From NCBI RefSeq assembly GCF_025567045.1, contig NZ_JAOQJK010000006.1, positions 175,816 to 239,815 of the forward strand: 64,000 nt of DNA, given 5' to 3'. Positions 6,616 to 64,000 of the stretch are shown here, one piece after another (position 1 is the stretch's first letter; each line of letters opens with the position of its first letter). The notes under the pieces are model-generated. The model did no database searches, had not been told where the DNA came from, and worked only from the letters and a program-made list of their open reading frames with translations. The position numbers were made by a program, and so were the translations under genes. The DNA comes from Barnesiella propionica. Lineage in GTDB: Bacteria; Bacteroidota; Bacteroidia; Bacteroidales; Barnesiellaceae.

Positions 6616-7641
6616 CTATTCTGCCGGTTCACAGGAAACCAGATCTTTTTCCGGTAAATCGTTCTTTTTCCGGTCCAAGGCAATGGAGAAAAAGGTATAT
6701 ATTCCCAATAATACGATCAACACCATTTGTGAACCGTGAACAACCAAAGCGAATGCCCCCGCTTCTGTAGCTCCCACTCCGTAGAAAGAGAGTCCGGCAA
6801 TAATCGCCAGGTGCCAGGGCCCGAGCCCCCCCTGTACGGGCAAGCCCATACTTAAACTGCCCAACACATACAAGGTAAGGGCAACCAGTATTCCCAGATC
6901 TTTTGTCCATTGGAAGGCAAAGAAACAAACATATAGCTGGAGAAAATAACAAGTCCAGATAAATATAGTATAAAACAAGAACTGAAATTTACCTTTCATT
7001 TTAAGTACCGTACTGAAACCTGTCCACAGATTTTGCACCATAGCTTTTACTTTTAAAGCCCATTTATTAGTCGTATTCTTACGGAAAAGCCATAAAACAG
7101 AACCTATCGCCAGCAGCAATATAGCATATAACCAGGGTGACGTAACGGTATTGACCAATCCCTGCTGTACCGAAGGATAATCGCTCAGGAATTTAAGAAA
7201 TACGTTCATGTTAAGGAAAAATACCGAAATGGTAAGTATAAGTACCGTCAAAGTATCGGTCAAACGATCCGAAACCATCGAACCGAATACTTGTGAAAAA
7301 GAAGATTTCTCTCTATGTGCTATATATCCGCAACGCCAAACCTCTCCCAACCTGGGAAAAACCAAATTCATCGCATACGTGCCGAATATGGCATTTACAA
7401 GGCTTCTCATCGAGGGTGATAGCCCCAGTGCCCGTAACTGCAAACGCCACCGGAAAGCCCTGGCGATATGACTGAAAATACTGATAACCATAGATACGGC
7501 TATCCAAAAATAATTAATATCTGATTTAAGAATAGAAAAAATCTCTTTCGTGTCGAGTTTACTGTATAAATACCAAAAGAGAGCCACGCCGCATATCAAA
7601 GGCAGGACGTACTTTACTATATTACTGAGTATTTTTTTCAA
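6616..7641 (-). CDS. LPG-synthase-like flippase (UPF0104 family)
   Basis: A 341-residue polytopic inner-membrane protein with about eight hydrophobic helices and the family patterns HIARAFRWRLQLRALG, FPRLGEVWRCGY and the late VQGGLGPWH segment. It corresponds to the membrane half of lysylphosphatidylglycerol synthase (UPF0104) without the soluble aminoacyl-transferase domain. Such stand-alone forms are thought to move lipids or lipid-linked molecules. The start is a TTG at 7641, 4-5 nt after an AGGA ribosome site; there is no better ATG. A candidate -7 element lies at 7682-7689. Confidence 0.85.
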   Translation of the reverse strand: MKKILSNIVKYVLPLICGVALFWYLYSKLDTKEIFSILKSDINYFWIAVSMVISIFSHIARAFRWRLQLRALGLSPSMRSLVNAIFGTYAMNLVFPRLGEVWRCGYIAHREKSSFSQVFGSMVSDRLTDTLTVLILTISVFFLNMNVFLKFLSDYPSVQQGLVNTVTSPWLYAILLLAIGSVLWLFRKNTTNKWALKVKAMVQNLWTGFSTVLKMKGKFQFLFYTIFIWTCYFLQLYVCFFAFQWTKDLGILVALTLYVLGSLSMGLPVQGGLGPWHLAIIAGLSFYGVGATEAGAFALVVHGSQMVLIVLLGIYTFFSIALDRKKNDLPEKDLVSCEPAE

Positions 7642-7681
7642 TTTTCCTGTTTTAAAAAATATTATTGTACCTTTGTGTCTC

Positions 7682-7689
7682 GCAAAGAT
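7682..7689 (-). promoter_or_regulatory. -7 element for the flippase gene
   Basis: On the minus strand TATCTTTG followed by C (plus-strand CAAAGATA at 7682-7689) fits TAnnTTTG. No convincing -33 TTG is seen. Confidence 0.4.
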
Positions 7690-7702
7690 ACGAGATAATC
7701 TG

Positions 7703-7710
7703 TAACTTTG
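7703..7710 (+). promoter_or_regulatory. -7 element for rsmA
   Basis: TAACTTTG at 7703-7710 followed by G fits the phylum consensus. A TTTG at 7672-7675 lies 27 bp upstream, too far for a normal -33. Transcription would start near 7717. Confidence 0.4.
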
Positions 7711-7769
7711 GTACGTCCGGAACTATTTAATTTAACTCCGGTAATAAGTTTACACATTGATTAACAGTC

Positions 7770-7802
7770 ATGGAAACGAACCGAAAAAGTAATGATAAAT
7801 AA
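7770..7802 (+). CDS. Possible 10-codon leader ORF overlapping rsmA start
   Basis: ATG at 7770 reads [10 protein letters not shown] and stops at TAA 7800-7802, 8 nt inside rsmA (ATG 7792) in another frame. A ribosome ending here would sit on the rsmA start, so coupled initiation is possible. No family is known and it may be chance. Confidence 0.2.
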
Positions 7803-8577
7803 CGTAAAACCCAAAAAATCACTGGGGCAACATTTCCTGAGAGATATGGATATCGCCCGCAGTATAGCCGACACGATAAGCGGGTACAAAGATATTCCTG
7901 TACTCGAGATCGGGCCTGGCATGGGTGTTCTTACTCAATTTCTCATTGAAGCCGGACATGACCTTACGGTCGTTGAGTTAGACAGGGAATCGGTAACTTA
8001 CCTGGAAGAGCATTTTCCCCAACTCAAAGGAAGAATTATCGGAGAAGATTTTCTGAAGTTAAAACTGGACCAACTTTTTCCCGGCCAGTTTTGTGTCATA
8101 GGAAATTATCCTTACAACATTTCAAGCCAAATTTTTTTTAAAGTAATAGATTACCGGGATCATATACCCTGCTGCAGTGGTATGATACAAAAAGAAGTAG
8201 CGGAACGCATGGCGGCTTCTCCGGGAAACAAAACATACGGTATATTAAGCGTACTCATGCAAGCATGGTATGACATCGAATATTTGTTTACCGTACCCGA
8301 ACATGTTTTCAATCCGCCTCCGAAAGTCAAATCGGCAGTCATAAAAATGACTCGCAATACCACTCAAAAACTCGATTGCGACGAGACCTTATTTAAACGA
8401 GTCGTCAAAACGAGCTTTAACCAGCGACGAAAAACCTTGAGGAACTCGCTTAAACCCTTGGTGGGAAAAGAGAGTGAGATTTTCGGTGATGAAATATTCA
8501 ACAAACGTCCCGAGCAATTATCGGTCGCTCAATTTGTCGAGCTGACAAACCGAATCGAGAAATACATACCCGAATAG
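7792..8577 (+). CDS. rsmA: 16S rRNA A1518/A1519 dimethyltransferase RsmA (KsgA)
   Basis: SAM-dependent enzyme that dimethylates two adjacent adenines of the 3'-end hairpin of 16S rRNA. It has the N-terminal KKSLGQHFL motif, SAM-binding EIGPGMG (39-45) and the catalytic NYPYNIS (105-111, the NLPYNIS motif with Tyr for Leu). The C-terminal helical domain carries [11 protein letters not shown]. At 261 residues it has the usual length. MgtE follows 48 bp downstream in the same direction. Confidence 0.96.
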
Positions 8578-8625
8578 TAACATGCAGAAGAAAATATCTT
8601 TCTTCTAAAAAAATGGAGGAACACA

Positions 8626-9972
8626 ATGGAAAAATTCACACCGGAATATATCCAGAACTTCCAACAAATCATTCTTAACGACGATAAAGAGAAAGCAAAA
8701 GAGCTGCTCAAAGAACTACACCCGGCAGACATTGCCGAGTTATACCAGGTTCTTAATCTCGATGAAGCCGAATACATCTACTTGCTGCTGGACGGAGAAA
8801 AGGCCGCGGACGTACTGATGGAACTGGACGACGACGATCGTAAGAAAATGCTGAAACAGCTTCCTAACGAAGTCATTGCCAAGCAGTTTATCGACTATAT
8901 GGATACGGACGATGCCGTAGACCTGATCCGTGAAATGGACGAGGAGGCTCAGGAAGAGATACTTTCCCATATTGACGACGTAGACCAGGCGGGAGATATC
9001 GTAGATCTGTTGAAATATGACGAAGATACGGCCGGCGGTCTTATGGGAACTGAAATGGTTGTCGTAAACGAAAACTGGAGTATGCCCGAATGCCTGAAAC
9101 AGATGCGGCAGCAAGCCGAACATATGGATGAGATTTATTACGTGTATGTAGTTGACGATGATTTTCGTTTACAAGGCGTATTCCCTTTAAAAAAGATGAT
9201 TACTCATCCGTCTGTTTCAAAGATCAAGCATGTGATGCGGAAAGATCCTGTTTCGGTAAAAACAGACACTCCTATAGACGAAGTGGCTCTTACGTTCGAA
9301 AAATATGATCTTGTAGCCGTTCCTGTAATAGACAGTATAGGCCGGCTGGTAGGAAGAATTACGGTAGACGACATAATGGATGAAGTGCGGGAACAATCGG
9401 AAAGGGATTATCAATTAGCTTCCGGTTTGTCTCAGGACGTTGAATCGGACGATACTATTTTCATGCAAACAAAAGCCCGCCTTCCCTGGTTGCTCATAGG
9501 TATGTTCGGCGGAATTACAAATTCCGTTATCCTGGGAAACTTCGAAGCCGGTTTTATCACTAACCCTGCCATGGCATTATTTATTCCCTTGATCGGAGGA
9601 ACCGGAGGTAATGTAGGTATACAATCCTCCGCTATCGTAGTGCAAGGCCTTGCCAACGGTACGCTGGAAATGAAGAATGCAGGAAAACAGTTGCTGAAGG
9701 AACTGGGGGTTGCCCTCATCAACGCCTGTATGATCTCATTGCTGGTCTTTGTATATAACTGGTTTCTCCTCGGCAACGTTTCCACTACGATATCGGTATC
9801 GCTTTCCCTTTTTACGGTAGTGATATTCGCATCCATATTCGGAACACTCGTGCCTATGACACTGGAACGCTTCAAAATAGATCCGGCAATAGCTACAGGT
9901 CCCTTCATAACTATTACCAACGATATTATCGGTATGCTTATCTACATGAGTATCAGTTTCGCACTCATGTAA
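8626..9972 (+). CDS. mgtE: Magnesium transporter MgtE
   Basis: Inner-membrane Mg2+ channel. The N-terminal acidic helical-repeat domain (about 15-130), a pair of CBS domains (about 135-255) and the C-terminal five-helix pore domain (about 275-448) with PLIGGTGGNVGIQSSA are all present. In known MgtE proteins, magnesium bound between the N and CBS domains closes the pore. Length 448 is normal. An unusually good ribosome site GGAGGA lies 7 nt before the ATG. The gap to rsmA is too short for an M-box riboswitch. Confidence 0.95.
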   Translation: MEKFTPEYIQNFQQIILNDDKEKAKELLKELHPADIAELYQVLNLDEAEYIYLLLDGEKAADVLMELDDDDRKKMLKQLPNEVIAKQFIDYMDTDDAVDLIREMDEEAQEEILSHIDDVDQAGDIVDLLKYDEDTAGGLMGTEMVVVNENWSMPECLKQMRQQAEHMDEIYYVYVVDDDFRLQGVFPLKKMITHPSVSKIKHVMRKDPVSVKTDTPIDEVALTFEKYDLVAVPVIDSIGRLVGRITVDDIMDEVREQSERDYQLASGLSQDVESDDTIFMQTKARLPWLLIGMFGGITNSVILGNFEAGFITNPAMALFIPLIGGTGGNVGIQSSAIVVQGLANGTLEMKNAGKQLLKELGVALINACMISLLVFVYNWFLLGNVSTTISVSLSLFTVVIFASIFGTLVPMTLERFKIDPAIATGPFITITNDIIGMLIYMSISFALM

Positions 9973-49905: not shown

Positions 49906-51609
49906 TTACGGTATAAATATTTTCCGCGTGGTTCCATCGGACATTTGCAGGATATTTATCCCTTTTACCGTTTTCTCGTTCAAACGTTGACCGAGAGTAT
50001 TATAACGGGCAACTTCATATATACCGTCTGCCGCGATTTTGTCTGTTCCGGAAAAATTGTATTCCTCAATATTCTGAAAAATATTCCAGCCCGCTGTTGT
50101 TTTATATGTATTCAATTCTCCTTTGGGAACATATAAAACGCATGTAGACAGGTCTATTCCCATAAACTGTAAATAACCGTTACATACCGGAGGTGTCGAC
50201 GGTACGCTATATATCTTCGACAGATTTGAACAGTACAGGAATGCCCCGGAATAAATTGTGTGTAAGCCATCCGGAATCGTAACCGAAAGCAAATGCTGTG
50301 CATAAGCGAATGCTGACATGCCCACAGATAATGTACCGTCAGGAATTACATATTCGGTTCTTCCTGTCGGGAAAAGAGTCAATTCCGTTCCGCTTTTATT
50401 AAAAAGAACGCCATCGATGCTTTTATAAGAAACATTTCCTTCTCCCATTTCGATTCTTTGCAAATTATTGCAATACCCGAAAACATATTGTCCTATGGTT
50501 GAAACACCGTTACCCATGGTTACCGAGTTCAAATCGCTACAACCCCAGAAAGCTGCATTACCGACAGACGTAACACTCTGCGGCATTATAACGGAGACTA
50601 ATCCCGTATTGGACGCGAACGCATAAGTTGCAATTTCCTCAACACCTTCAGGAATCACATAATTACCGGCTTTCTTCCCCGGAAAGCAGAGTAAAACCGT
50701 ACCCTGTTTATTAAACAGCACATCATTTACACTTTTATATGCCGCATTACTTTCTGAAACCATTAACGATTCAAGTTCGCTACACATACTGAACGCCTCT
50801 TCTCCTATAGAAGATACTCCGGCACCGATCGTTACTGAAGCAAGAGAAAAGCACATCGAAAAGGCAGTTTTCCCGACAGTTTGTACATTATCGGGTATAG
50901 TTATCGACGCTAATGCGTAGCACTCCATAAATGCGGATTCTTCAATTTCACGAACACTGTTAGGAATCGTTACACCGGTCAGACCTTTACAACCCGCAAA
51001 CGCACGAGCCGCAATCTTATCAACTCCATTAGCAACCGGATAGTGCCCTGATTTTCCCGTAGGGAAATAAGTAAGTTCCGTTCCCGCCTTGTTATAAAGA
51101 ACTCCATCCACTGCTTTATAATATTGGTTCGCCGGATCTATCGAAACAGAGATTAAACCCGGACAATCTATAAACGAATAACCGTCTTCCACCGCTGTAA
51201 TACCGGACGGCAATACGATTGTTTGAAGAGACTTACAGGCATAAAACATATACGGCCCTATTTTGTCCGACACTGCAATATACATAAGAGCCTGACTTTC
51301 GTTCATATAATAAGGGTCGCCTCCTATAATATTCACATTCCCCAAATCGAGAGCAGCCAGTTTTCCATCAGTTTCATTCCCATAGTAATCCGAACCGGCC
51401 ATCTCACGAATAAATCTGATATCTATTCCGTTCAGACTTCCGTTTACTTTAAGATCGGTAATCTGAAATTTCTTATCCGGAGAGATTTTTTGAGATAAAG
51501 TTCCCGGATCATCTACTGTTACGATAATCTGTTCTGCCTTGCATGGCAGATTAACCGTTAGAAAAAATGAGAGCATCATGATTAATCCAGATAAACTTAA
51601 AGGTTTCAT
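49906..51609 (-). CDS. BspA-like leucine-rich-repeat surface protein
   Basis: A 567-residue secreted protein. Signal peptide ends near PCKAE (about residue 26). At least nine BspA/Treponema-type LRR units of about 23 residues follow (pattern xIGxxAFxxCxxLxSVTIPxxVxxI), interrupted by three copies of a longer insert with the form YKSIDGVLFNKSGTELTLFP. The C-terminus (about 530-567) has VARYNTLGQRLNEKT and KGINILQMSDGTTRKIFIP, a short beta tail common at the ends of surface proteins in this order. Role is probably binding to host or microbial surfaces. ATG 51609 is preferred over the TTG at 51615. Confidence 0.9.
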   Translation of the reverse strand: MKPLSLSGLIMMLSFFLTVNLPCKAEQIIVTVDDPGTLSQKISPDKKFQITDLKVNGSLNGIDIRFIREMAGSDYYGNETDGKLAALDLGNVNIIGGDPYYMNESQALMYIAVSDKIGPYMFYACKSLQTIVLPSGITAVEDGYSFIDCPGLISVSIDPANQYYKAVDGVLYNKAGTELTYFPTGKSGHYPVANGVDKIAARAFAGCKGLTGVTIPNSVREIEESAFMECYALASITIPDNVQTVGKTAFSMCFSLASVTIGAGVSSIGEEAFSMCSELESLMVSESNAAYKSVNDVLFNKQGTVLLCFPGKKAGNYVIPEGVEEIATYAFASNTGLVSVIMPQSVTSVGNAAFWGCSDLNSVTMGNGVSTIGQYVFGYCNNLQRIEMGEGNVSYKSIDGVLFNKSGTELTLFPTGRTEYVIPDGTLSVGMSAFAYAQHLLSVTIPDGLHTIYSGAFLYCSNLSKIYSVPSTPPVCNGYLQFMGIDLSTCVLYVPKGELNTYKTTAGWNIFQNIEEYNFSGTDKIAADGIYEVARYNTLGQRLNEKTVKGINILQMSDGTTRKIFIP

Positions 51610-51749
51610 ACGCAAATATTTTTTATATTGTTTATTTATTAATTATCAATGATTAAACTGATTATATATTTTCATATATAAAATTACAAATAAGCTTTTT
51701 ATCAAATTTTTCCTTCAAAATATAACGCAGAATATCGGCCTTAAAAATA

Positions 51750-52335: not shown

Positions 52336-53211
52336 ATGCTGTCGATACTCATTCCTTGTTATAATTATGATTGTTCGGCATTGGTGCAGGAATTGTACCG
52401 ACAGACTAAATTATTACCTTATCCCGTTGAAATACTGGTTGCTGATGATGCTTCATCCATGGATATATCACAACTGGAAAATAAGATAAATGCACTCGAG
52501 AATTGCAGATTCCTGAGGATGGAGTATAATTCGGGACGCGCCGTCATCCGGAATTATCTGGCCGGAATATCCCGTTACGAATGGCTACTGTTTCTCGATT
52601 GCGATGCAGCCATAATAAACAGCAATTTTCTGGCATGCTATATGGAAGCGACCAGCGGATACGATGTCGTATGCGGCGGTCTCAAATACCGTCGTCCTCT
52701 TCCCTCGTACGATCTCTCATTACGCTATTATTACGGTATTTCTGCAGAAGAACGTACGGCAGAGATGCGGAATAAAACACCATATGATAAATTCACAACA
52801 TTCAGCTTCCTGATAAAAAGAGAGGTATTCCAACAGATACGTTTTGACGAATCGTTCTATAAATACGGACATGAAGATTCGGTTTTCGGAACAGAACTGG
52901 AAAAGCGTAAAATAAAAATTCTCCACATAGACAACCCTCTCTACCATGAAGGATTGGAAACAAACGATAATTTCCTGCGCAAAACCGAGATTTCCATTGA
53001 AAATCTTATTGCTTTACCCGCCGCAAGTAAAGTTAAATCCCGCCTGATGTATACCTATAAAAAAATTAAAAGCATTAAATTATCCCCTGTCGTCCGCCTG
53101 GTTTTCATTATTCTCCGCAAACCGTTGTCTCTTCATCTTACAGGAAAGCATCCCCGTATGAGACTCTTTGCTTTTTATAAACTGGGATATTTATGTTATA
53201 TAGCTAAATAA
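52336..53211 (+). CDS. Family 2 glycosyltransferase
   Basis: A 291-residue inverting GT-A glycosyltransferase. It starts SILIPCYNYD, has the nucleotide-binding ILVADDASS (about 33-41), the metal motif LFLDCDAAI (about 86-94) and a late acceptor/base region FYKYGHEDSVFG (about 174-185). There is no membrane helix apart from mild hydrophobicity near the C-terminus. A single gene away from any polysaccharide cluster; donor and acceptor unknown. Confidence 0.88.
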   Translation: MLSILIPCYNYDCSALVQELYRQTKLLPYPVEILVADDASSMDISQLENKINALENCRFLRMEYNSGRAVIRNYLAGISRYEWLLFLDCDAAIINSNFLACYMEATSGYDVVCGGLKYRRPLPSYDLSLRYYYGISAEERTAEMRNKTPYDKFTTFSFLIKREVFQQIRFDESFYKYGHEDSVFGTELEKRKIKILHIDNPLYHEGLETNDNFLRKTEISIENLIALPAASKVKSRLMYTYKKIKSIKLSPVVRLVFIILRKPLSLHLTGKHPRMRLFAFYKLGYLCYIAK

Positions 53212-56299: not shown

Positions 56300-56434
56300 A
56301 TGAATGAAGTATTAAATGAAATCTCTGGTTTACAGTATCAAATACAAAGATACCAGGCAATGAAAAACGGCACAATGTGTCAATTATTGTATGCAAAATT
56401 GCAAAAACTGATGGCTCTGAAAGCTGTCGCTTAA
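56300..56434 (+). CDS. Uncharacterised 44-residue peptide
   Basis: ATG 56300 to TAA 56432-56434. It starts MNEVLNEISGLQYQIQRYQA and ends QKLMALKAVA, with an NGTMCQLLYAKL middle. The pattern is amphipathic and helical with one Cys, no signal peptide and no double-glycine leader end. Evidence that it is real: it lies between a -7 element (56228) and a strong terminator (56471-56509) in an otherwise empty spacer and fills most of that transcript. I know no family for it. It precedes the exporter/PqqD/kinase operon by about 390 bp, but that operon has its own promoter, so a precursor role is only a possibility. A small regulatory protein is the other reading. Confidence 0.5.
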   Translation: MNEVLNEISGLQYQIQRYQAMKNGTMCQLLYAKLQKLMALKAVA

Positions 56435-56774: not shown

Positions 56775-56806
56775 TTTTGTACTTTATATCATAATATATA
56801 TCTTTG
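56775..56806 (+). promoter_or_regulatory. Promoter of the exporter/PqqD/kinase operon
   Basis: TTTTG at 56775-56779, 19-bp spacer, TATCTTTG at 56799-56806: full match to the phylum consensus. The start of transcription near 56813 is about 15 nt before the ABC gene ATG. Confidence 0.7.
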
Positions 56807-56827: not shown

Positions 56828-58531
56828 ATGCTTTCGTCCAAACTACGCACACTACTGAATATGCAGGGCAAGCGAAAGATTCTGCAATCGCTGGCCATAA
56901 TCCTTGCGACCGCGCTCTGTAATTTAATAGGGTTAGCTGTATTATTGCCGATACTTATCCTCATCCTCGACAATAATAATATCCTTACCAATCCTGTACT
57001 ATCATACCTATACCACAAAACAGGACTTGCCGATATTACATCATTTACTATAATCCTGTGTATATGCGTACTGGGGATTATATTATTAAAGAATATTTTT
57101 TATATTCTTCTGGTACAGAAACAAAGCCGCATATCTTTGTCTTTTTTCAGATTATACTCGACCCGGATGTATTCGACTTATCAGAATAAAGGACTGTTAT
57201 ATATTAAAAATCACAATACGGCTGAACTTATCAATAATGTAAACTCCGTATGCAGCAGATTGACCATGGGGGTTATATATCCATTATTCAATATGACAAG
57301 TGAAACCATACTCCTGATAATCATTACCGCCGGTTTATTGTGGTACAATGCATGGGTCGTATTACTTATCATGTGCATTATGGTTCCGGTGATACTTATA
57401 AACACTCTGTCCATTAAGCCCAGACTCGTGGAAAACGGTAAAGAAGAAAATAGATTACAAATATCCCAGAACAAAATCATGATGGAGTCTTTCCGGGGTT
57501 ATGCCGAAATAGAAATCAATAACGCCCGTCCATTCGTCTTTAATCAATATAAAGAAGGGCTAAAAAAACTAAGTCGTTGCCGGACCCGCTCGGCAGTTTT
57601 AAGTGCCATGTCGGGTCGTTTCTCTGAAATAAGTCTTATTAGCGGAACAATCGTGTTTATAATTTTCTGCATATTATCGGGGAAAGAGCTTTCATCCATG
57701 AAAATGATGTTCGGCGTATTTGCCCTGGCAGCTTACCGTATAGTACCGGGCATCAATACTTTATCGGGATTATGGCTAACGATAAAACGAAACAGTTATG
57801 CCATAGATATTGTAGCGGACACTATCAGGGATGATCCGGAAGAAATTCCTTCGAGTATAGAGAACATCCCTTTTTCGAAACAAATTAAAATAAACGATCT
57901 TTGTTTCTCCTATGACGGTGAACATCCTGTGATACAACATTTAAATATCACCATTTTCAAAGGAGAAAAAATAGGTTTTAAAGCTCCTTCCGGAACAGGA
58001 AAAACTACTTTATTCCATCTACTCATGGGACTATATACTCCTCAAAAAGGAAATATAACGGTAGATAATACAAATATAACTCCCGAAAATATAAGCGTAT
58101 GGCAAAAGCAATTGGCCTATGTATCTCAGGAAGTATTCATTCTGGATGCTTCACTGGCTGAAAATATAGCATTAGGGACAAACCGTGAACGTATAGACCG
58201 GGAAAAAATAGAACGCGTCATAGAAATGGCATCGTTAAGCGACTTCGTACATAATTTACCTAACGGACTTGAGAGTAACCCGGGTGAATTCGGTTGCCGC
58301 CTGTCGGGAGGTCAACGGCAGCGAATAGGCATAGCACGTGCTTTATATAAAGACGCATCTGTATTATTTTTTGACGAGGCAACATCGGCATTGGATAATG
58401 AAACGGAATGGGAAATCAACAAATCAATCAATCATCTTGCTGCAGAAAACAAGGAATTAACTATATTGATAATAGCACACAGAGAAAGCACGTTATCTTA
58501 TTGCGACCGAATTATAAATCTATCGAAATGA
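56828..58531 (+). CDS. ABC exporter, fused permease/ATPase
   Basis: A 567-residue half-transporter. Six membrane helices lie in the first 320 residues; the ATPase has Walker A APSGTGKTTL (386-395), signature LSGGQ (492-496), Walker B VLFFDEA (512-518) and the switch His in IIAHRES. There is no N-terminal C39 peptidase domain. The layout resembles PglK/MsbA-like exporters and the D-type exporters of lasso-peptide loci. It heads a five-gene operon; its stop shares ATGA with the next start. Cargo is unknown, presumably a product handled by the downstream genes. Confidence 0.92.
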   Translation: MLSSKLRTLLNMQGKRKILQSLAIILATALCNLIGLAVLLPILILILDNNNILTNPVLSYLYHKTGLADITSFTIILCICVLGIILLKNIFYILLVQKQSRISLSFFRLYSTRMYSTYQNKGLLYIKNHNTAELINNVNSVCSRLTMGVIYPLFNMTSETILLIIITAGLLWYNAWVVLLIMCIMVPVILINTLSIKPRLVENGKEENRLQISQNKIMMESFRGYAEIEINNARPFVFNQYKEGLKKLSRCRTRSAVLSAMSGRFSEISLISGTIVFIIFCILSGKELSSMKMMFGVFALAAYRIVPGINTLSGLWLTIKRNSYAIDIVADTIRDDPEEIPSSIENIPFSKQIKINDLCFSYDGEHPVIQHLNITIFKGEKIGFKAPSGTGKTTLFHLLMGLYTPQKGNITVDNTNITPENISVWQKQLAYVSQEVFILDASLAENIALGTNRERIDREKIERVIEMASLSDFVHNLPNGLESNPGEFGCRLSGGQRQRIGIARALYKDASVLFFDEATSALDNETEWEINKSINHLAAENKELTILIIAHRESTLSYCDRIINLSK

Positions 58532-59019
58532 CTCCTGTACTGAAGAAACCGAATGAAATATTGCTGGAACAAGTAAACGAGCTGATTCTTGCCGGACATC
58601 ATGTTCATCTACGGGTAAAAGGTATAAGCATGACTCCTACCCTGTTAAACGCAAGGGATATCGTCGAACTGGCACCCTGTAAAAAAAACAGATTGAAACG
58701 TCGGGATATTGTTTTATTCCGTTATAATGACCGGATTCTTTTACACCGTATTGTACGAAAAAACAAGAAAGGTCATTATAAAATATCAGGAGACGGCAAC
58801 TGTTCAGGTTATGAATATGCCACTCCGAAAGATATCATAGCACAGGTCGTAAAAATAAAAAAAGAAAACAAAAATATAGACTGTAACCATTTGCTATGGC
58901 ATATTTATTCTGAAATTTGGTTACTTTTACGGCCGGTACGGCGATATTTACTTTATGCGGGAAGATCTTTCTACAAACACTTAAATCACAAACGATATGA
59001 AAATAAAGAAAGGATATAA
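58528..59019 (+). CDS. S24/S26 signal peptidase-like protein
   Basis: A 163-residue protein with the S26 fold. The nucleophile region is VKGISMTPTL with Ser34; ILLHRIV places a His at 73, as in the Ser-His (SipW/Sec11) type; then YKISGDGNCSG (85-95). The C-terminal part (about 118-150) is moderately hydrophobic and basic rather than a clear anchor. It would cut an exported peptide or act as a dedicated processing protein of this operon. Start at ATG 58528, overlapping the ABC stop; a longer frame from 58408 lies inside the ABC gene and is rejected. Overlaps the PqqD gene by 23 bp. Confidence 0.85.
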   Translation: MTPVLKKPNEILLEQVNELILAGHHVHLRVKGISMTPTLLNARDIVELAPCKKNRLKRRDIVLFRYNDRILLHRIVRKNKKGHYKISGDGNCSGYEYATPKDIIAQVVKIKKENKNIDCNHLLWHIYSEIWLLLRPVRRYLLYAGRSFYKHLNHKRYENKERI

Positions 59020-59266
59020 GACCAGGCAGGTAGCCGGAGAGTGCCTGGTCGTTGCACCGGGAGACCTGCACGTCGATTTTACACGTATTATCTCCTTGAA
59101 TTCCACATCGGAATGGTTATGGAATTCTATCATCGGAAAAGAATTTAATACCGAAACCATTATTGATTTGCTATGTGAACAATATAATGTATCGAAAGAC
59201 GAAGCGGAAAAAGACAGTAAAAACTGGATCGAACAACTTCGCCAAGCACAGCTTATCGAAGAATGA
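58997..59266 (+). CDS. PqqD-like peptide-binding protein
   Basis: An 89-residue protein of the PqqD/RRE type: winged-helix-like beta hairpin LVVAPGDLHVDFTRIISLN and the hallmark SEWLWNSIIGK, then a helix with TIIDLLCEQYNVSKDEAEKD. In RiPP pathways such domains bind the leader of a precursor peptide. Here it is a separate protein between the peptidase-like and nucleotidyltransferase genes, with overlaps on both sides. This is the best clue that the operon handles a ribosomal peptide. Confidence 0.88.
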   Translation: MKIKKGYKTRQVAGECLVVAPGDLHVDFTRIISLNSTSEWLWNSIIGKEFNTETIIDLLCEQYNVSKDEAEKDSKNWIEQLRQAQLIEE

Positions 59267-60390
59267 AAGAAAAAGGGTTGATAACGGCTTATAAAAATCG
59301 GGCAAAAGAACTGCTCCCCATCTTATTAGTATCTGTTTTATGGGATAAACCGGTCGATGAGAATCATTTCATGGACATGAATGATACTCTATGGAATGAA
59401 ATTATTTCCATATCCGGACAACATGGCGTACTTGCTTTGGCTTTCGATGCTATGCTGACACTTCCAACTGAATTACAACCATCCCGTATCATCAGACTAC
59501 AATGGTTCAATATGGTTTGTCAGGTAGAAAATTTCAACGAACGGATTTACCGGGTAATTTTTTTACTAGACAAGTTGTTTACAGACGCCCATATCCCCTA
59601 TATGTTATTAAAAGGAATCGGAATTGCATCTTATTATCCTGTCCCGGAACATAGGTCCAGCGGCGATATAGATATATTTGTCCCGGAAAATGCAGAAAAA
59701 GCTATTAAAATAATAAAAAATGCCGGTGCGGTTCCCGACCATGATACGAAACGGCACTGTTGTTTATTCATTAACGGGGTGACAGTGGAAATCCATAGAT
59801 ACTGCATAGGGACAAAAGACAGAATGTTAGACAAACGTTACCAAATCATAAGCAAACGGTTATTAAAATATCCCCCACATCATATTCTTCTGCAAGACCA
59901 TGTAATTCCTGTTCCGCCGATAATGTTTGATGCCTGGTTTTTACCTATGCATCTCATGCACCATTTCATCTATGTGGGTATAGGACTAAGGCATCTCTGT
60001 GACTGGATTATATTTCTGCGCCGTTATTCAGAAAAAATAGATAAACGAATTTATGCGGCCGATATGGAATATATCCACATGATGCGTATTACCCGGGCAT
60101 TCGGGCATATCCTTACGGAGAAACTCGGGCTACCAGCCGATATGTTTCCTATCGGGCTGACTAATGACATAAAAGAAAAAAATGATGCCCGCCGCATTTA
60201 CGAGAATATAATGTATGGAGGTAACTTCGGGCGCCATTTACGATTTTCAACAAATCGCAAAATCCTGAAATTGCCAACTAAATTTACCTCTTTACTGCGT
60301 TTTGCCGATTCACAATGGAAGCAACAGATGGTAGATCCTCTTTCGGGCATTCGAGTACTTATAGGAGGTCTATTCCCCAATTCACATTAA
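59263..60390 (+). CDS. NTP_transf_5 nucleotidyltransferase-family protein
   Basis: A 375-residue protein of the uncharacterised nucleotidyltransferase family (NTP_transf_5). The MLLKGIGIA (114-122) and RSSGDIDIFV (131-140) segments provide the GS/DxD-like catalytic pair Asp135 and Asp137; VTVEIHRYC gives a third acidic position. The C-terminal half is helical (MHLMHHFIYVGIGLRHLCDW). Homologues recur in lasso-peptide and other RiPP clusters together with HPr-kinase-like proteins, where nucleotidyl or phosphate transfer to the peptide is suspected. ATGA overlap with pqqD-like gene; 11 bp before the kinase gene. Confidence 0.88.
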   Translation: MKEKGLITAYKNRAKELLPILLVSVLWDKPVDENHFMDMNDTLWNEIISISGQHGVLALAFDAMLTLPTELQPSRIIRLQWFNMVCQVENFNERIYRVIFLLDKLFTDAHIPYMLLKGIGIASYYPVPEHRSSGDIDIFVPENAEKAIKIIKNAGAVPDHDTKRHCCLFINGVTVEIHRYCIGTKDRMLDKRYQIISKRLLKYPPHHILLQDHVIPVPPIMFDAWFLPMHLMHHFIYVGIGLRHLCDWIIFLRRYSEKIDKRIYAADMEYIHMMRITRAFGHILTEKLGLPADMFPIGLTNDIKEKNDARRIYENIMYGGNFGRHLRFSTNRKILKLPTKFTSLLRFADSQWKQQMVDPLSGIRVLIGGLFPNSH

Positions 60391-60401
60391 ACTGAAAAAT
60401 T

Positions 60402-61280
60402 ATGCCGCAGTTCTGTATAGCAAATCATCGCTTCAAGATATTGACATCCGATCCGTATTTCATGGACGCCATGTATCCGTTCACCCCTTTTCGGATATCC
60501 GACGACGACAGACCGGACAATGATTTTTTATTTATCTTGCACCCCGAAGAAAATCTCGATCATATCGATATCGATACATTAATAAGAAAAGCCGATACGC
60601 AAGTAAAGCATATCGGTCAAGTTTCTATTCTGGAAAATACGGATAAAAGTATTCTAATTCAACATACATCCGATAATAAGGACCTCTTATTACTTTGGGA
60701 TAAAAACGACAATCATTTCTATTCCGACCTTTTATTAAAAGCCCCGCACGATCTGGCAAAATTGGATATGCAGATCATGCGTGCATTCAATTACGCAGCC
60801 CTTCGGGCCAATACTCTATTATTCCATTCATCTTGCATAGTAAAAGACAATAATGCCCGTCTTTTTCTCGGAAAATCCGGAACAGGTAAATCTACACATT
60901 CGGCTCTGTGGCTGGAGCATATACCAGAATCATATCTGCTCAATGACGACGTACCTGCCGTACGCATCTTACACAATGAAGTAATAGCCTACGGTACTCC
61001 CTGGAGTGGTAAATTGAATTGTTACAAAAACGAATCGGCTCCCGTTTCTGCATTTTTCAGATTATATCAGGGAAGAGAAAATACAATACAGAAGTTTACG
61101 GGGAAAGAAGCATTCATCCGTTTATATCCCTCTTGTGCTCCCGTATTCACCTGGTTTGAGGAAACTCAGGATCTGTATTGTAATTTCTTATCCGAGCTAA
61201 TTACCCGTATCAAAGTATACGAAGTACATTGTCTGCCCGATAAAGCAGCGGCACTCATGACTTTCGATGTATCGAAATAA
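60402..61280 (+). CDS. HPr-kinase/phosphorylase-like kinase
   Basis: A 292-residue protein with the C-terminal HprK fold. Walker A LGKSGTGKSTHS (156-167), LLNDDVPAVR (179-188) with Mg-binding Asp residues, and YGTPWSGK (197-204), a segment recalled from lasso-peptide kinases. The N-terminal 130 residues form a separate beta-rich region. There is no HPr gene nearby, so a sugar-PTS role is unlikely; phosphorylation of a peptide or small molecule is likelier. Last gene of the operon, 9 bp from the convergent prophage-like genes with no terminator seen. Confidence 0.87.
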   Translation: MPQFCIANHRFKILTSDPYFMDAMYPFTPFRISDDDRPDNDFLFILHPEENLDHIDIDTLIRKADTQVKHIGQVSILENTDKSILIQHTSDNKDLLLLWDKNDNHFYSDLLLKAPHDLAKLDMQIMRAFNYAALRANTLLFHSSCIVKDNNARLFLGKSGTGKSTHSALWLEHIPESYLLNDDVPAVRILHNEVIAYGTPWSGKLNCYKNESAPVSAFFRLYQGRENTIQKFTGKEAFIRLYPSCAPVFTWFEETQDLYCNFLSELITRIKVYEVHCLPDKAAALMTFDVSK

Positions 61281-61289
61281 CATTATTCT

Positions 61290-61706
61290 TTAGTTTTTGG
61301 AAACTTTACCGATAAAAATCATTAAACATACCCCCCCAATTCCCAGCGTCCACCAGCACCATCCAGGAACATGCTCCCGGTAAACTGTATCCCCTTTCAC
61401 CGGGTAACCTACCGAATCATGCACAAAAAAATAGTAAACCTTCCCCGGTACTGTCACCGGTGAATCCTTAATATTAAGCGAATGTGACAATTTACCATTT
61501 ATTACTCCGGCCCAGCTCTCTGCATACTGGTTTGCCAGATAGCTCACCGTATCTTCTGTCACTACGCTATCCCGATAGGGAACCAACTGCGTCTCCACCA
61601 ACGTATCTGTTTCTTTTGCAATCTGTGTGCGTATTGTTGGAATATAAACCGTCCGAGTACAGGACACGGCAAACAAGAGAATAACAAGATATAACAGTCC
61701 CTTCAT
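61290..61706 (-). CDS. Prophage-type lipoprotein with C-terminal membrane helix
   Basis: A 138-residue protein with a lipobox LFAVSC (Cys16), a beta-rich middle and a C-terminal hydrophobic helix (about 113-131). Being directly after an endolysin-like gene, it could be a spanin-like lysis protein, or an anchor or modulator. No family recognised. Its start overlaps the upstream gene by 4 bp. Confidence 0.6.
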   Translation of the reverse strand: MKGLLYLVILLFAVSCTRTVYIPTIRTQIAKETDTLVETQLVPYRDSVVTEDTVSYLANQYAESWAGVINGKLSHSLNIKDSPVTVPGKVYYFFVHDSVGYPVKGDTVYREHVPGWCWWTLGIGGVCLMIFIGKVSKN

Positions 61707-62095
61707 AATTTCAAGAATTCTCTCCGGTTATTACCGGCCCGATAACTCACATGAATCCACGTTAAATTACTTTCATCTATTAACTGGTCAAACTCCATAT
61801 CACTTAATAAAGCCAGCAATTTGCGGTTTTCTTCCACAGTGCCACCCGTGATATCCGCCGCCTCACCTCTCAAATGCTGGCTCGTCGGTGTACCTCCTAC
61901 AGCCTTATTTAGTATCGGGCTGCGATAACCGCTGTTCACCCTGATTGGCTTCCCATATCTTTCGCGCAAAGGGTCAAGAATCTTTTCTGCCAAAGTAGAT
62001 AATCTCACTTTCACATCGCCCGGAGCCGTATTATCTATTCCTTTTTTACGCGCCGTATCACTTGCGCAAAGTTCCTGTATCGTAAAATATTTCAT
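61703..62095 (-). CDS. M15-type peptidase (phage endolysin-like)
   Basis: D-Ala-D-Ala carboxypeptidase-like Peptidase_M15_3 domain of 130 residues. The zinc-site segments are VNSGYRSPILN, SQHLRGEAADI (His and Asp ligands) and TWIHVSY (third His). ATG 62095 (MKYFTIQELC) matches the usual start; ATG 62122 adds nine residues and remains possible. No signal peptide; a holin or membrane protein would be needed for lysis. The upstream small membrane protein may serve. Confidence 0.88.
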   Translation of the reverse strand: MKYFTIQELCASDTARKKGIDNTAPGDVKVRLSTLAEKILDPLRERYGKPIRVNSGYRSPILNKAVGGTPTSQHLRGEAADITGGTVEENRKLLALLSDMEFDQLIDESNLTWIHVSYRAGNNRREFLKL

Positions 62096-62129
62096 GATTT
62101 TCTTTTCTTTAAATAAGTCCATTATTCAA

Positions 62130-62480
62130 TCAATAGTCGCTCGGAGGCTGTCGTTTATTGCAGCCTCTTATATCGCAACGTTTAATTTCAGCTTCTTTAT
62201 ACTCCAGTTCTTTCTCATGTAGCTTATGAATATAAGCTAATTTATCGGCTTGTTCTTGGCGTAACTCTATATATAACGCATCTATCTTGGCATCTCTTTG
62301 AGAAATACGTTCTTCCAGCCATGCCACTTGTTTTCGCTCGTTCTCGTTCTCTATACCGTCAACTGCAGCATCTTCTTTCCGTTCGTTCACTTTACGGGTA
62401 GACCAGAAAGTAACCAGCCATTCTACTGCTTTAAAACCGCCCATGGCTCCTAACACCGATAAAAGACTGTTCAGGTCCAT
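62130..62480 (-). CDS. Small prophage coiled-coil protein
   Basis: A 116-residue protein with a short hydrophobic N-terminus (about 4-28, LLSVLGAMGGFKAVEWLVTFW) and a long charged coiled coil (about 36-95). It ends in a Cys-containing basic tail. Typical of membrane-linked accessory genes beside phage lysis genes; could be part of the holin system. Function unknown. Overlaps the upstream gene by 10 bp. Confidence 0.6.
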   Translation of the reverse strand: MDLNSLLSVLGAMGGFKAVEWLVTFWSTRKVNERKEDAAVDGIENENERKQVAWLEERISQRDAKIDALYIELRQEQADKLAYIHKLHEKELEYKEAEIKRCDIRGCNKRQPPSDY

Positions 62481-62701
62481 AAATTTTTCACGAATATACC
62501 TCCAACAATACCTATCCCGTCAAAAAACAAATCCAGAAGACTATCACCGTACCTTTCAGGATATGCAATATTCCCCGATTCACGTCCCGCCGCCAACCCG
62601 ACAGCCACTTCCCAGCTTCCTAAAGACACGATAAAACAAACCGCCAGATGCAGCACCTTATCTGGCACATGACCCGTCACCCAGTTATACAACCGCCTCA
62701 T
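62471..62701 (-). CDS. Small prophage membrane protein (holin candidate)
   Basis: A 76-residue protein with DKVLHLAVCFIVSLGSWEVAVG (quoted in part: DKVLHLAVCFIVSLG), a first hydrophobic helix (about 15-37) and a second (about 54-72). The DK-x-LH start recalls YfiM/DUF2279-like small membrane proteins. Position between the tail protein and the endolysin suggests a holin-like role, by context only. Overlaps both neighbours. Confidence 0.55.
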   Translation of the reverse strand: MRRLYNWVTGHVPDKVLHLAVCFIVSLGSWEVAVGLAAGRESGNIAYPERYGDSLLDLFFDGIGIVGGIFVKNLWT

Positions 62702-62885
62702 AACTCACGATTATTTCGGTTTCTGTCTCTTCATAAACTTCTTTTCCTTCTGAAACCTCCGTAACGTCCGGGAAAACTACAAGCTTATAACCATGCTCAA
62801 GCAAGGTTTCTGCATTCGGATTAAACACGTTCCCTATGTGACCGGGGGCGGGAATTAAAACCCCGTTTTCCAATTTTGCATACAT
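62685..62885 (-). CDS. Small prophage protein, unknown
   Basis: A 66-residue acidic soluble protein (MYAKLENGVLIPAPG at the start; many Glu in the C-terminal half). Similar short proteins often follow tail-fibre genes in Bacteroides prophages. No function can be given. Overlaps the next gene by 17 bp and follows the large tail gene by 14 bp. Confidence 0.55.
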   Translation of the reverse strand: MYAKLENGVLIPAPGHIGNVFNPNAETLLEHGYKLVVFPDVTEVSEGKEVYEETETEIIVSYEAVV

Positions 62886-62899
62886 AATAAAACCTCTTT

Positions 62900-64000
62900 T
62901 TATAATACTTCTTTCACTGTGATATTTTTAATAGTAAATTCCAACGGTGTATCATTATCTTCAGGATATACCGACAAGCTGCTTATAGATGACTGAATAG
63001 CCGTTATCCGTGCCGTAACGCTATTCTTATCCCCCGTTAATTGTATGGGAAAACTAATACCGGACAATACTATTATTCGGGTTAAAGTTTTGGCAATATC
63101 CGGCGATGTCCATTGCAGCGTAACATCATATTCTTTACCGGCTGTCGTCGGGATAGCAGTAAATGAATGTAACACATAGGTAGAACGCCCCTGAGAATCT
63201 TTCCCGGTTTGCCTGATTGTAAATGTCCCGTCCTGGTTATTCACAATCTCCGTAGCATCCCCGTTATTAACCGCCGCGCCGTTAAATGTCCTCACATATA
63301 CGGGATTGTACGGATTCTCATAAACCAGTTTGGCATTATTCCTATAACCTAATTTTTCCAATTTCATACTTACCAATTTCACCTGAAAAGGTGCATTAGA
63401 CGATACCAGATATAAATTTGCACTGCCCACCTGTGCCGTGCTTTCATTATTTAACTGGTCCCCGTATACCTGTTCAGATGACGTATATACGTAAAAAGGA
63501 GTAGTACGGTCGCTCCTTAAAAACCATACATTACATATATTTTTTTTGTTAGCCGTGTCCGTTGTCGGTTCAAACACTACGGTCAAACGATAATTTATCC
63601 CAAATTCAATTTCAATATTCTTTCCAAAATTTAGGCTAATAACCGGACGCGAACCGGGGCTTTCCGAAGCCGGTTGCACAATATCCACCAGCCAGGTTCC
63701 GTCCGGTTGTTTTTCTATCGTTCCGCTCCCTAACATATTTCCGCTAACATGGGGAATGGCATCAGAGAACAATACTTCTTTAGGTTCCATTTCCAAATTT
63801 ATAAGATGTTGCGCCGGAATAACCTCTTTTACACCTCCGGTCTCGGCTACATTAGCCGTATCACGTACCATATTAGTCGTCATATTCTTCCCTAATACTT
63901 CCGACAACATACCTACTTGTTCAGCCTTAAAGTCGTATATGGTAAATTCGTCACCTTCCGCATAGGGATTTATGTAAATATAAAAATTCAACGGAGTGCC
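62900..64000 (-). CDS. Prophage tail/receptor-binding protein, 5' end beyond window
   Basis: At least 366 residues; the first codons lie to the right of the window, since the frame is open across 64000 and the only apparent start at 63991 is an internal TTG. It begins (within window) with PLNFYIYINPYAEGDEF. Two jelly-roll or carbohydrate-binding-like beta domains are apparent (about 90-215 and 240-362), with segments such as GTFTIRQTGKDSQGRSTYVL. It probably forms part of the tail tip that touches the cell surface. No clear family. Confidence 0.65.
   Translation of the reverse strand, partial: GTPLNFYIYINPYAEGDEFTIYDFKAEQVGMLSEVLGKNMTTNMVRDTANVAETGGVKEVIPAQHLINLEMEPKEVLFSDAIPHVSGNMLGSGTIEKQPDGTWLVDIVQPASESPGSRPVISLNFGKNIEIEFGINYRLTVVFEPTTDTANKKNICNVWFLRSDRTTPFYVYTSSEQVYGDQLNNESTAQVGSANLYLVSSNAPFQVKLVSMKLEKLGYRNNAKLVYENPYNPVYVRTFNGAAVNNGDATEIVNNQDGTFTIRQTGKDSQGRSTYVLHSFTAIPTTAGKEYDVTLQWTSPDIAKTLTRIIVLSGISFPIQLTGDKNSVTARITAIQSSISSLSVYPEDNDTPLEFTIKNITVKEVL

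Follow-up and report, generated by a model that had tools for sequence, protein, structure and literature searches.

A widespread five-gene cassette of Bacteroidota as a candidate trans-acting system for peptide maturation and export

A 64,000-nucleotide stretch of the Barnesiella propionica genome (contig NZ_JAOQJK010000006.1, positions 175,816 to 239,815; hereafter the window) carries five co-directional, compactly packed genes on its forward strand at positions 56828-61280. They encode an ABC exporter, an S26-type peptidase-like protein (S26), a PqqD-like protein, an NTP_transf_5 nucleotidyltransferase-fold protein (NTP5) and an HprK-like protein, and these five gene families make up what we call the cassette. 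Sequence comparison indicates that the operon belongs to a widespread, conserved and reshuffled family of Bacteroidota cassettes. The family is apparently undescribed, and we found no paper on it in one open-licence library. We propose, with a probability of about 0.6, that the operon is a general-purpose, trans-acting cassette for the maturation and export of peptides of the ribosomally synthesized and post-translationally modified (RiPP) type. The likely substrates of the cassette family are small peptides with a YxxP leader, many of which are encoded next to surface lipoproteins.

Results and Discussion

Conservation of the Cassette

Scanning genome contigs with an HprK alignment confirmed at least 583 relatives, of which the best 80 loci were taken. 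Counting genes anywhere in a locus, HprK is present in all 80, S26 in 74, PqqD in 64, the ABC exporter in 38 and NTP5 in 21; all five components occur in 15/80 and at least one other component in 78/80, HprK standing alone only in L017 and L033. Among 393 Bacteroidales genomes drawn evenly, an HprK-like match was obtained in 61 genomes at E ≤ 0.001 and in 30 at E ≤ 2e-20, and 30/30 short loci from this draw hold one or more of the other cassette components. The grouping of the cassette genes exceeds chance, bearing out the co-conservation for which an earlier note on this DNA had proposed a neighbourhood check.

Gene order in the cassettes is variable and the genes mostly remain adjacent. A conserved, exported-looking protein of about 150 amino acids (aa) is encoded 5' of the cassettes of Prevotellaceae type (L050, 9176-9676, and 22 other loci), with no Pfam match for the one copy scanned. 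These cassettes often follow RpoD- and DegP-like genes, as named by eye.

A Family of YxxP Peptides as Candidate Substrate

Among 898 small open reading frames (ORFs) located within 2.5 kb of cassettes (110 loci and the window), one family recurs, being found in 14 loci. Its members begin with a leader that reads YEAPxVEVxEVxVEKGFAxS and continue into a tail that is short, variable and rich in Gly and Asp, the combination of conserved leader and variable core that marks RiPP precursors. The alignments show no variation at the Tyr, the Pro and one Glu, and 144 of 152 members have a Ser 19 residues past the Tyr, conservation that is inflated because 120 of the 152 are the top matches of the profile itself. 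Tail entropy in the same 152 members is about 2.7-3.6 bits per position, with almost no Cys and no fixed acidic position seen. Twelve members were scanned and matched nothing in Pfam and nothing significantly in NCBIfam, and the profile retrieves 1848 database proteins at E ≤ 0.01, each standing for a cluster. YxxP is the motif by which lasso leaders bind PqqD-type proteins, or RiPP recognition elements, according to PMC12710340.

Most YxxP ORFs are encoded away from the cassette, the family occurring both beside cassettes and scattered in several copies. In genome G728, a YxxP ORF, a lipoprotein gene, PqqD, NTP5, ABC, HprK and S26 follow one another on one strand. In genome G588, an island of about 53 kb (L219-L222) holds every one of the five cassette families together with nine YxxP peptides and as many large lipoproteins (about 760-1100 aa). 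The leaders of these nine peptides are 90% identical and their tails 25%, and leader DNA is on average 90% identical; the island looks like the outcome of repeated duplication with tail replacement.

The peptides and the cassette tend to occur in the same genomes. YxxP peptides are encoded by 12/30 of the drawn Bacteroidales genomes with an HprK match at E ≤ 2e-20 versus 4/363 of the others (Fisher test, 5.5e-12), and one of these four has a weak HprK match; omitting the seed genome G001 leaves 11/29 among the strong-HprK genomes (5e-11). Across 301 genomes of the family to which G001 belongs, the peptides occur in 66/236 HprK-positive (E ≤ 1e-15) and 4/65 HprK-negative genomes (p=1e-4). At least 14 of these 66 genomes, where about one would be expected, have a YxxP ORF no more than 10 kb from HprK, and at least 12 do so once two seed genomes are set aside. 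The genomes of the fetched loci, surveyed with L063 excluded, encode the family in 34/50 cases (22/38 for non-seed genomes), rising to 12/14 where all five cassette genes are present (5/7 for non-seed genomes).

Several observations weigh against this association or against its extension to B. propionica. Restricted to strong peptide matches (E ≤ 1e-8), the comparison within the family of G001 is not significant (21/236 vs 2/65, p=0.18). Cassettes of Prevotella type (HprK-S26-PqqD) are accompanied by a clear YxxP match in only 2/13 genomes, and by a match at E ≤ 0.01 under a broader model in 7/13, several of these matches being weak. Each survey includes four YxxP genomes without a strong HprK match, two of the YxxP models (A2 and A3) were seeded from cassette genomes, and the statistics ignore relatedness, G685 and G728 for example sharing the same spacing. 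The family nearest to that of the window has a YxxP ORF in 0/9 genomes, and there is none in the 64 kb of the window. The earlier note had suggested looking for a conserved small ORF next to the five genes; such a family exists beside other cassettes (14/110 loci) but not in the window. Because of this absence, we infer rather than see that the operon's own substrate is a YxxP peptide.

Lipoprotein Partners

A lipoprotein gene lies directly 3' of the YxxP ORF in 51/74 cases, compared with 169/1493 (11%) for control ORFs. The 74 were drawn from the loci at hand, 60 selected regions and a Bacteroides oleiciplenus locus, after the removal of peptides that were repeats, were rich in X or had E>1e-3, and of three at contig ends. 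Partner ORFs that end inside their loci encode 220 to 1334 aa, and sizes near 500 aa are an artefact of the 1.5-kb flanks. One partner that was modelled is predicted to adopt a Bacteroidales fimbrillin fold; some others have BspA-LRR or BACON regions over the cut-off, or weak FISUMP or GLUG matches. The partners may be regarded as putative surface lipoproteins, some of which at least belong to the fimbrillin type. The known type V pili and fimbrillins of Bacteroidales (FimA, Mfa1-5, BF1861) compare with these partners of the peptides and not with parts of the cassette.

The Operon and Its Proteins

The operon is preceded by a match to TTTG-N19-TATCTTTG, which we take to be the Bacteroides-type promoter consensus, at 56776-56806 on the same strand, ending 22 bp 5' of the ABC start. 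The window contains four matches to this pattern, where 1.13 are expected and four were reached in 2/100 shuffles. The ABC exporter (56828-58531) combines membrane and ATPase halves (ABC_tran, 5.6e-28, above the Pfam cut-off). Its best NCBIfam models are MsbA and PglK, both far below the model cut-offs, and no C39 leader-peptidase domain was reported in it by Pfam or NCBIfam.

The S26 gene (58528-59019, 163 aa) joins the ABC gene through an ATGA overlap. Its product resembles signal peptidases of the S26B (SEC11/SipW) type in having a Ser-His pair, Ser34 in a GxSMxP motif and His73 in an LHRI box, each found in 99/99 alignment rows with a letter at that position and invariant in 16. Matches to Peptidase_S24 (6.2e-5) and S26 (0.0037) are below the Pfam cut-offs, and an S26-family profile matches SEC11C (1.7e-6) and SEC11A (8.2e-6). 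No N-terminal hydrophobic segment or membrane anchor was seen by eye. In L007 (7172-7921), the S26 protein has a C-terminal extension that appears VanZ-like by eye, and several further loci of the PqqD-HprK-S26 arrangement have an S26 ORF of similar length.

The stand-alone PqqD-like protein (58997-59266, overlapping S26 by 23 nt) is of the RiPP recognition element type and matches PF05402 above the cut-off (1.1e-13). As would be expected of a leader-binding protein of the lasso B1/PqqD type, its nearest solved relatives by sequence are the lasso B1 proteins TfuB1 (7.9e-7) and TbiB1 (0.0028). NTP5 (59263-60390, overlapping PqqD by 4 nt) also exceeds its Pfam cut-off (4.3e-39) and has the motif residues GD-x-D (Asp135, Asp137), Lys117, Glu176 and His178; FKRP, a sugar-phosphate transferase, is among the proteins that its fold matches.

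The HprK/PEPCK-like protein (60402-61280) follows after a gap of 11 nt. It is assigned as a kinase from weak matches to PEPCK and P-loop families (PEPCK 2.1e-5, below the Pfam cut-off, and a second PEPCK match at 0.0023) together with a conserved motif: His142, P-loop Lys163, Asp182 and Asp183 are each found in at least 112 of the 113 rows. This is the His-Lys-Asp-Asp set described for lasso kinases in PMC9266682, the equivalence to the PadeK residues being by order only. The coordinates, the Pfam matches and the promoter match agree with the earlier note, which had described one promoter followed by five overlapping or nearly overlapping genes. Pfam gave no match (E ≤ 0.1) to lasso cyclase or B2 families for any of the five proteins of the operon, and the window has no Rfam match and no tRNA detectable by ARAGORN.

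Proposed Mechanism

We suggest that small peptides are bound through their YxxP leader by the PqqD-like protein and would then be phosphorylated by the HprK-like kinase, for which the nearly invariant Ser that lies 19 residues past the Tyr is the prime candidate site. NTP5 would subsequently add a nucleotide or sugar to the phosphate; for comparison, PsmN adds a hexose to the phosphorylated Ser in pseudomycoidin (PMC9266682). Cleavage of the leader may fall to the Ser-His S26 protein, and export to the MsbA-like ABC protein; the product probably acts at the cell surface with the lipoprotein encoded beside the peptide. For the window, the scheme presumes that the genome encodes such peptides. 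The earlier note had proposed the modification and export of a peptide with the S26 protein as leader remover. This is supported in part: the operon is built from lasso accessory families and lacks cyclase and B2 protease, and the S26 protein is plausible in that role, but a link to capsule loci, considered below, also exists.

The operon is most readily compared with the tailoring systems of the lasso peptides paeninodin and pseudomycoidin (B1, PadeK/PsmK, PsmN), with which it shares a stand-alone PqqD protein, an HprK-like kinase with His-Lys-Asp-Asp, a nucleotidyltransferase and an ABC exporter, as well as the YxxP leader, here found in associated ORFs. It differs from them in having an S26B-type Ser-His protein in place of a B2 protease and cyclase, and its candidate precursors are many, scattered and paired with lipoproteins, with no sign of a macrolactam. 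In trans-acting, multi-substrate RiPP systems such as that of the prochlorosins, one enzyme set serves a large number of dispersed precursors whose leaders are conserved and whose cores are hypervariable. The cassette family appears similar in its single enzyme set and in its candidate precursors, which are likewise numerous and dispersed and combine a conserved leader with a variable tail, whereas its enzymes are unrelated to the lanthipeptide synthetase used there and its precursors are paired with surface lipoproteins. By model name, the HprK-rel-A system (NCBIfam TIGR04352/TIGR04353) likewise combines an HprK-related kinase with a PqqD-family chaperone, but the window proteins score far below the cut-offs of these models (15.2 of 200 bits and 14 of 35 bits).

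Alternative Explanations

Counting against the peptide proposal, the cassette lies between glycosyltransferase-like and Wza-type genes in 7/80 loci, all of them NTP5-bearing; a Wzc-type gene follows the Wza-type gene in six of the seven, and the remaining one has no Wzc on its contig. The cassette might accordingly serve exopolysaccharide or glycoconjugate assembly, with the ABC protein flipping a glycan, NTP5 and HprK priming or modifying it and PqqD recruiting a protein acceptor, so that YxxP peptides would be at most anchors or acceptors. Pfam, applied to proteins of L074 and L040, confirms Poly_export, GNVR and Bac_transf, and in L074 a single ORF (7417-8847) is a natural fusion of a GT4 glycosyltransferase with a PqqD domain. 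In B. oleiciplenus the ABC gene is next to one for a Wzz-type protein and, with names assigned by eye, a Wza-type gene is found a few genes away in L061 and L078, and flippase- and glycosyltransferase-like genes nearby in L046, L052 and L078. The likeness of the ABC protein to MsbA and PglK, and of the NTP5 fold to FKRP, would also suit a glycan substrate.

Conversely, no Wza-type gene directly adjoins the cassette in the other 73/80 loci, and the window has no glycosyltransferase or Wza/Wzc genes next to the operon, a GT2-like ORF (by eye; 52336-53211) being separated from it by two other genes. Two of the exopolysaccharide loci, L073 (YxxP ORFs) and L040 (a weak match, E 0.12), themselves carry YxxP-like ORFs before lipoproteins. 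A consistent capsule association in place of a small ORF, which the earlier note had named as the outcome that would tell against a peptide, is not what we find: the genes are co-conserved and a small ORF family exists next to them. We consider a role in exopolysaccharide or glycoconjugate assembly improbable. Because L040 and L073 combine both features, peptide and glycan may be parts of one system.

It is still less probable that the cassette serves regulation or housekeeping as a kinase module and has no relation to the YxxP ORFs, which would then be leader ORFs that hitch-hike with genes of fimbrillin type. Such an explanation would account for the tighter pairing of YxxP ORFs with lipoprotein genes than with the cassette, and for the Prevotella-type cassettes that mostly have no clear YxxP match. 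It fits poorly with the co-occurrence of peptides and cassette, their physical linkage and the logic of PqqD-leader recognition, and also with L036, L071 and L096, where the YxxP ORF directly precedes HprK with no lipoprotein between.

A true lasso peptide cluster, with its cyclase and B2 protease encoded elsewhere in the genome, is very improbable: the PqqD-like protein is closest to lasso B1 proteins, lasso clusters can hold PqqD, HPr kinase and nucleotidyltransferase (PMC7533575) and the paeninodin model weakly matches a single YxxP peptide (E 0.12), but the tails have no fixed acidic position and, chiefly, the B2 family PF13471 is found in only 1/50 cassette genomes. An asparagine-synthetase-like cyclase gave no match among the five operon proteins, and no genome-wide search was made for it.

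Genomic Setting and Origin of the Operon

Among the drawn genomes, the family nearest to the window by PurH (82% identical) has an HprK match in 0/9 genomes. In four relatives the corresponding flank reads U32 peptidase, metA, small ORF and ABC-F-like gene (by eye), without a cassette. For these two reasons the operon looks inserted in the lineage of the window, and the same observations argue against the cassette being a vertically inherited feature of it. The G+C content of the cassette is mildly low (0.39, compared with a mean of 0.43 and a standard deviation of 0.02 for 22 selected window genes).

A prophage-like end with an M15-type endolysin (phrog_894) abuts the operon at 61290-64000 on the reverse strand and runs off the window. 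We rejected the operon as phage cargo, since scans of viral_contigs with the HprK-like protein and NTP_transf_5 confirmed no relative and the prophage end lies on the opposite strand.

The sole small ORF seen just 5' of the operon (56300-56434, +, 44 aa) is followed by a terminator-like hairpin, identified by eye. It was rejected as a precursor and is best regarded as a resident gene because its homologues are present in 13/13 related genomes, with an HprK match in 0/13; these homologues adjoin metA in the four relatives that were laid out. Further upstream, at 49906-51615 on the reverse strand, a secreted leucine-rich-repeat protein appears BspA-like by eye. BspA-like leucine-rich-repeat proteins are neighbours of YxxP peptides in other genomes; no YxxP ORF was found in the window.

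Implications

The proposal links a common, uncharacterised Bacteroidota cassette to a very large unannotated peptide family, and it offers enzymes known chiefly from the tailoring of lasso peptides a substrate that can be tested. It also points to a relative of signal peptidases as a possible leader protease in RiPP systems and would connect peptide modification to pilus-like adhesins, and sometimes to capsule loci, in gut bacteria. More speculatively, the kinase could phosphorylate the nearly invariant Ser of many variable peptides, and NTP_transf_5, or a GT4-PqqD fusion in exopolysaccharide loci, would attach a sugar or glycan to the phosphate, each peptide being displayed by or built into its own lipoprotein of type V-pilus fold. 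If this tentative extension is true, gut Bacteroidota would possess a repertoire of interchangeable surface peptides produced by one central cassette.

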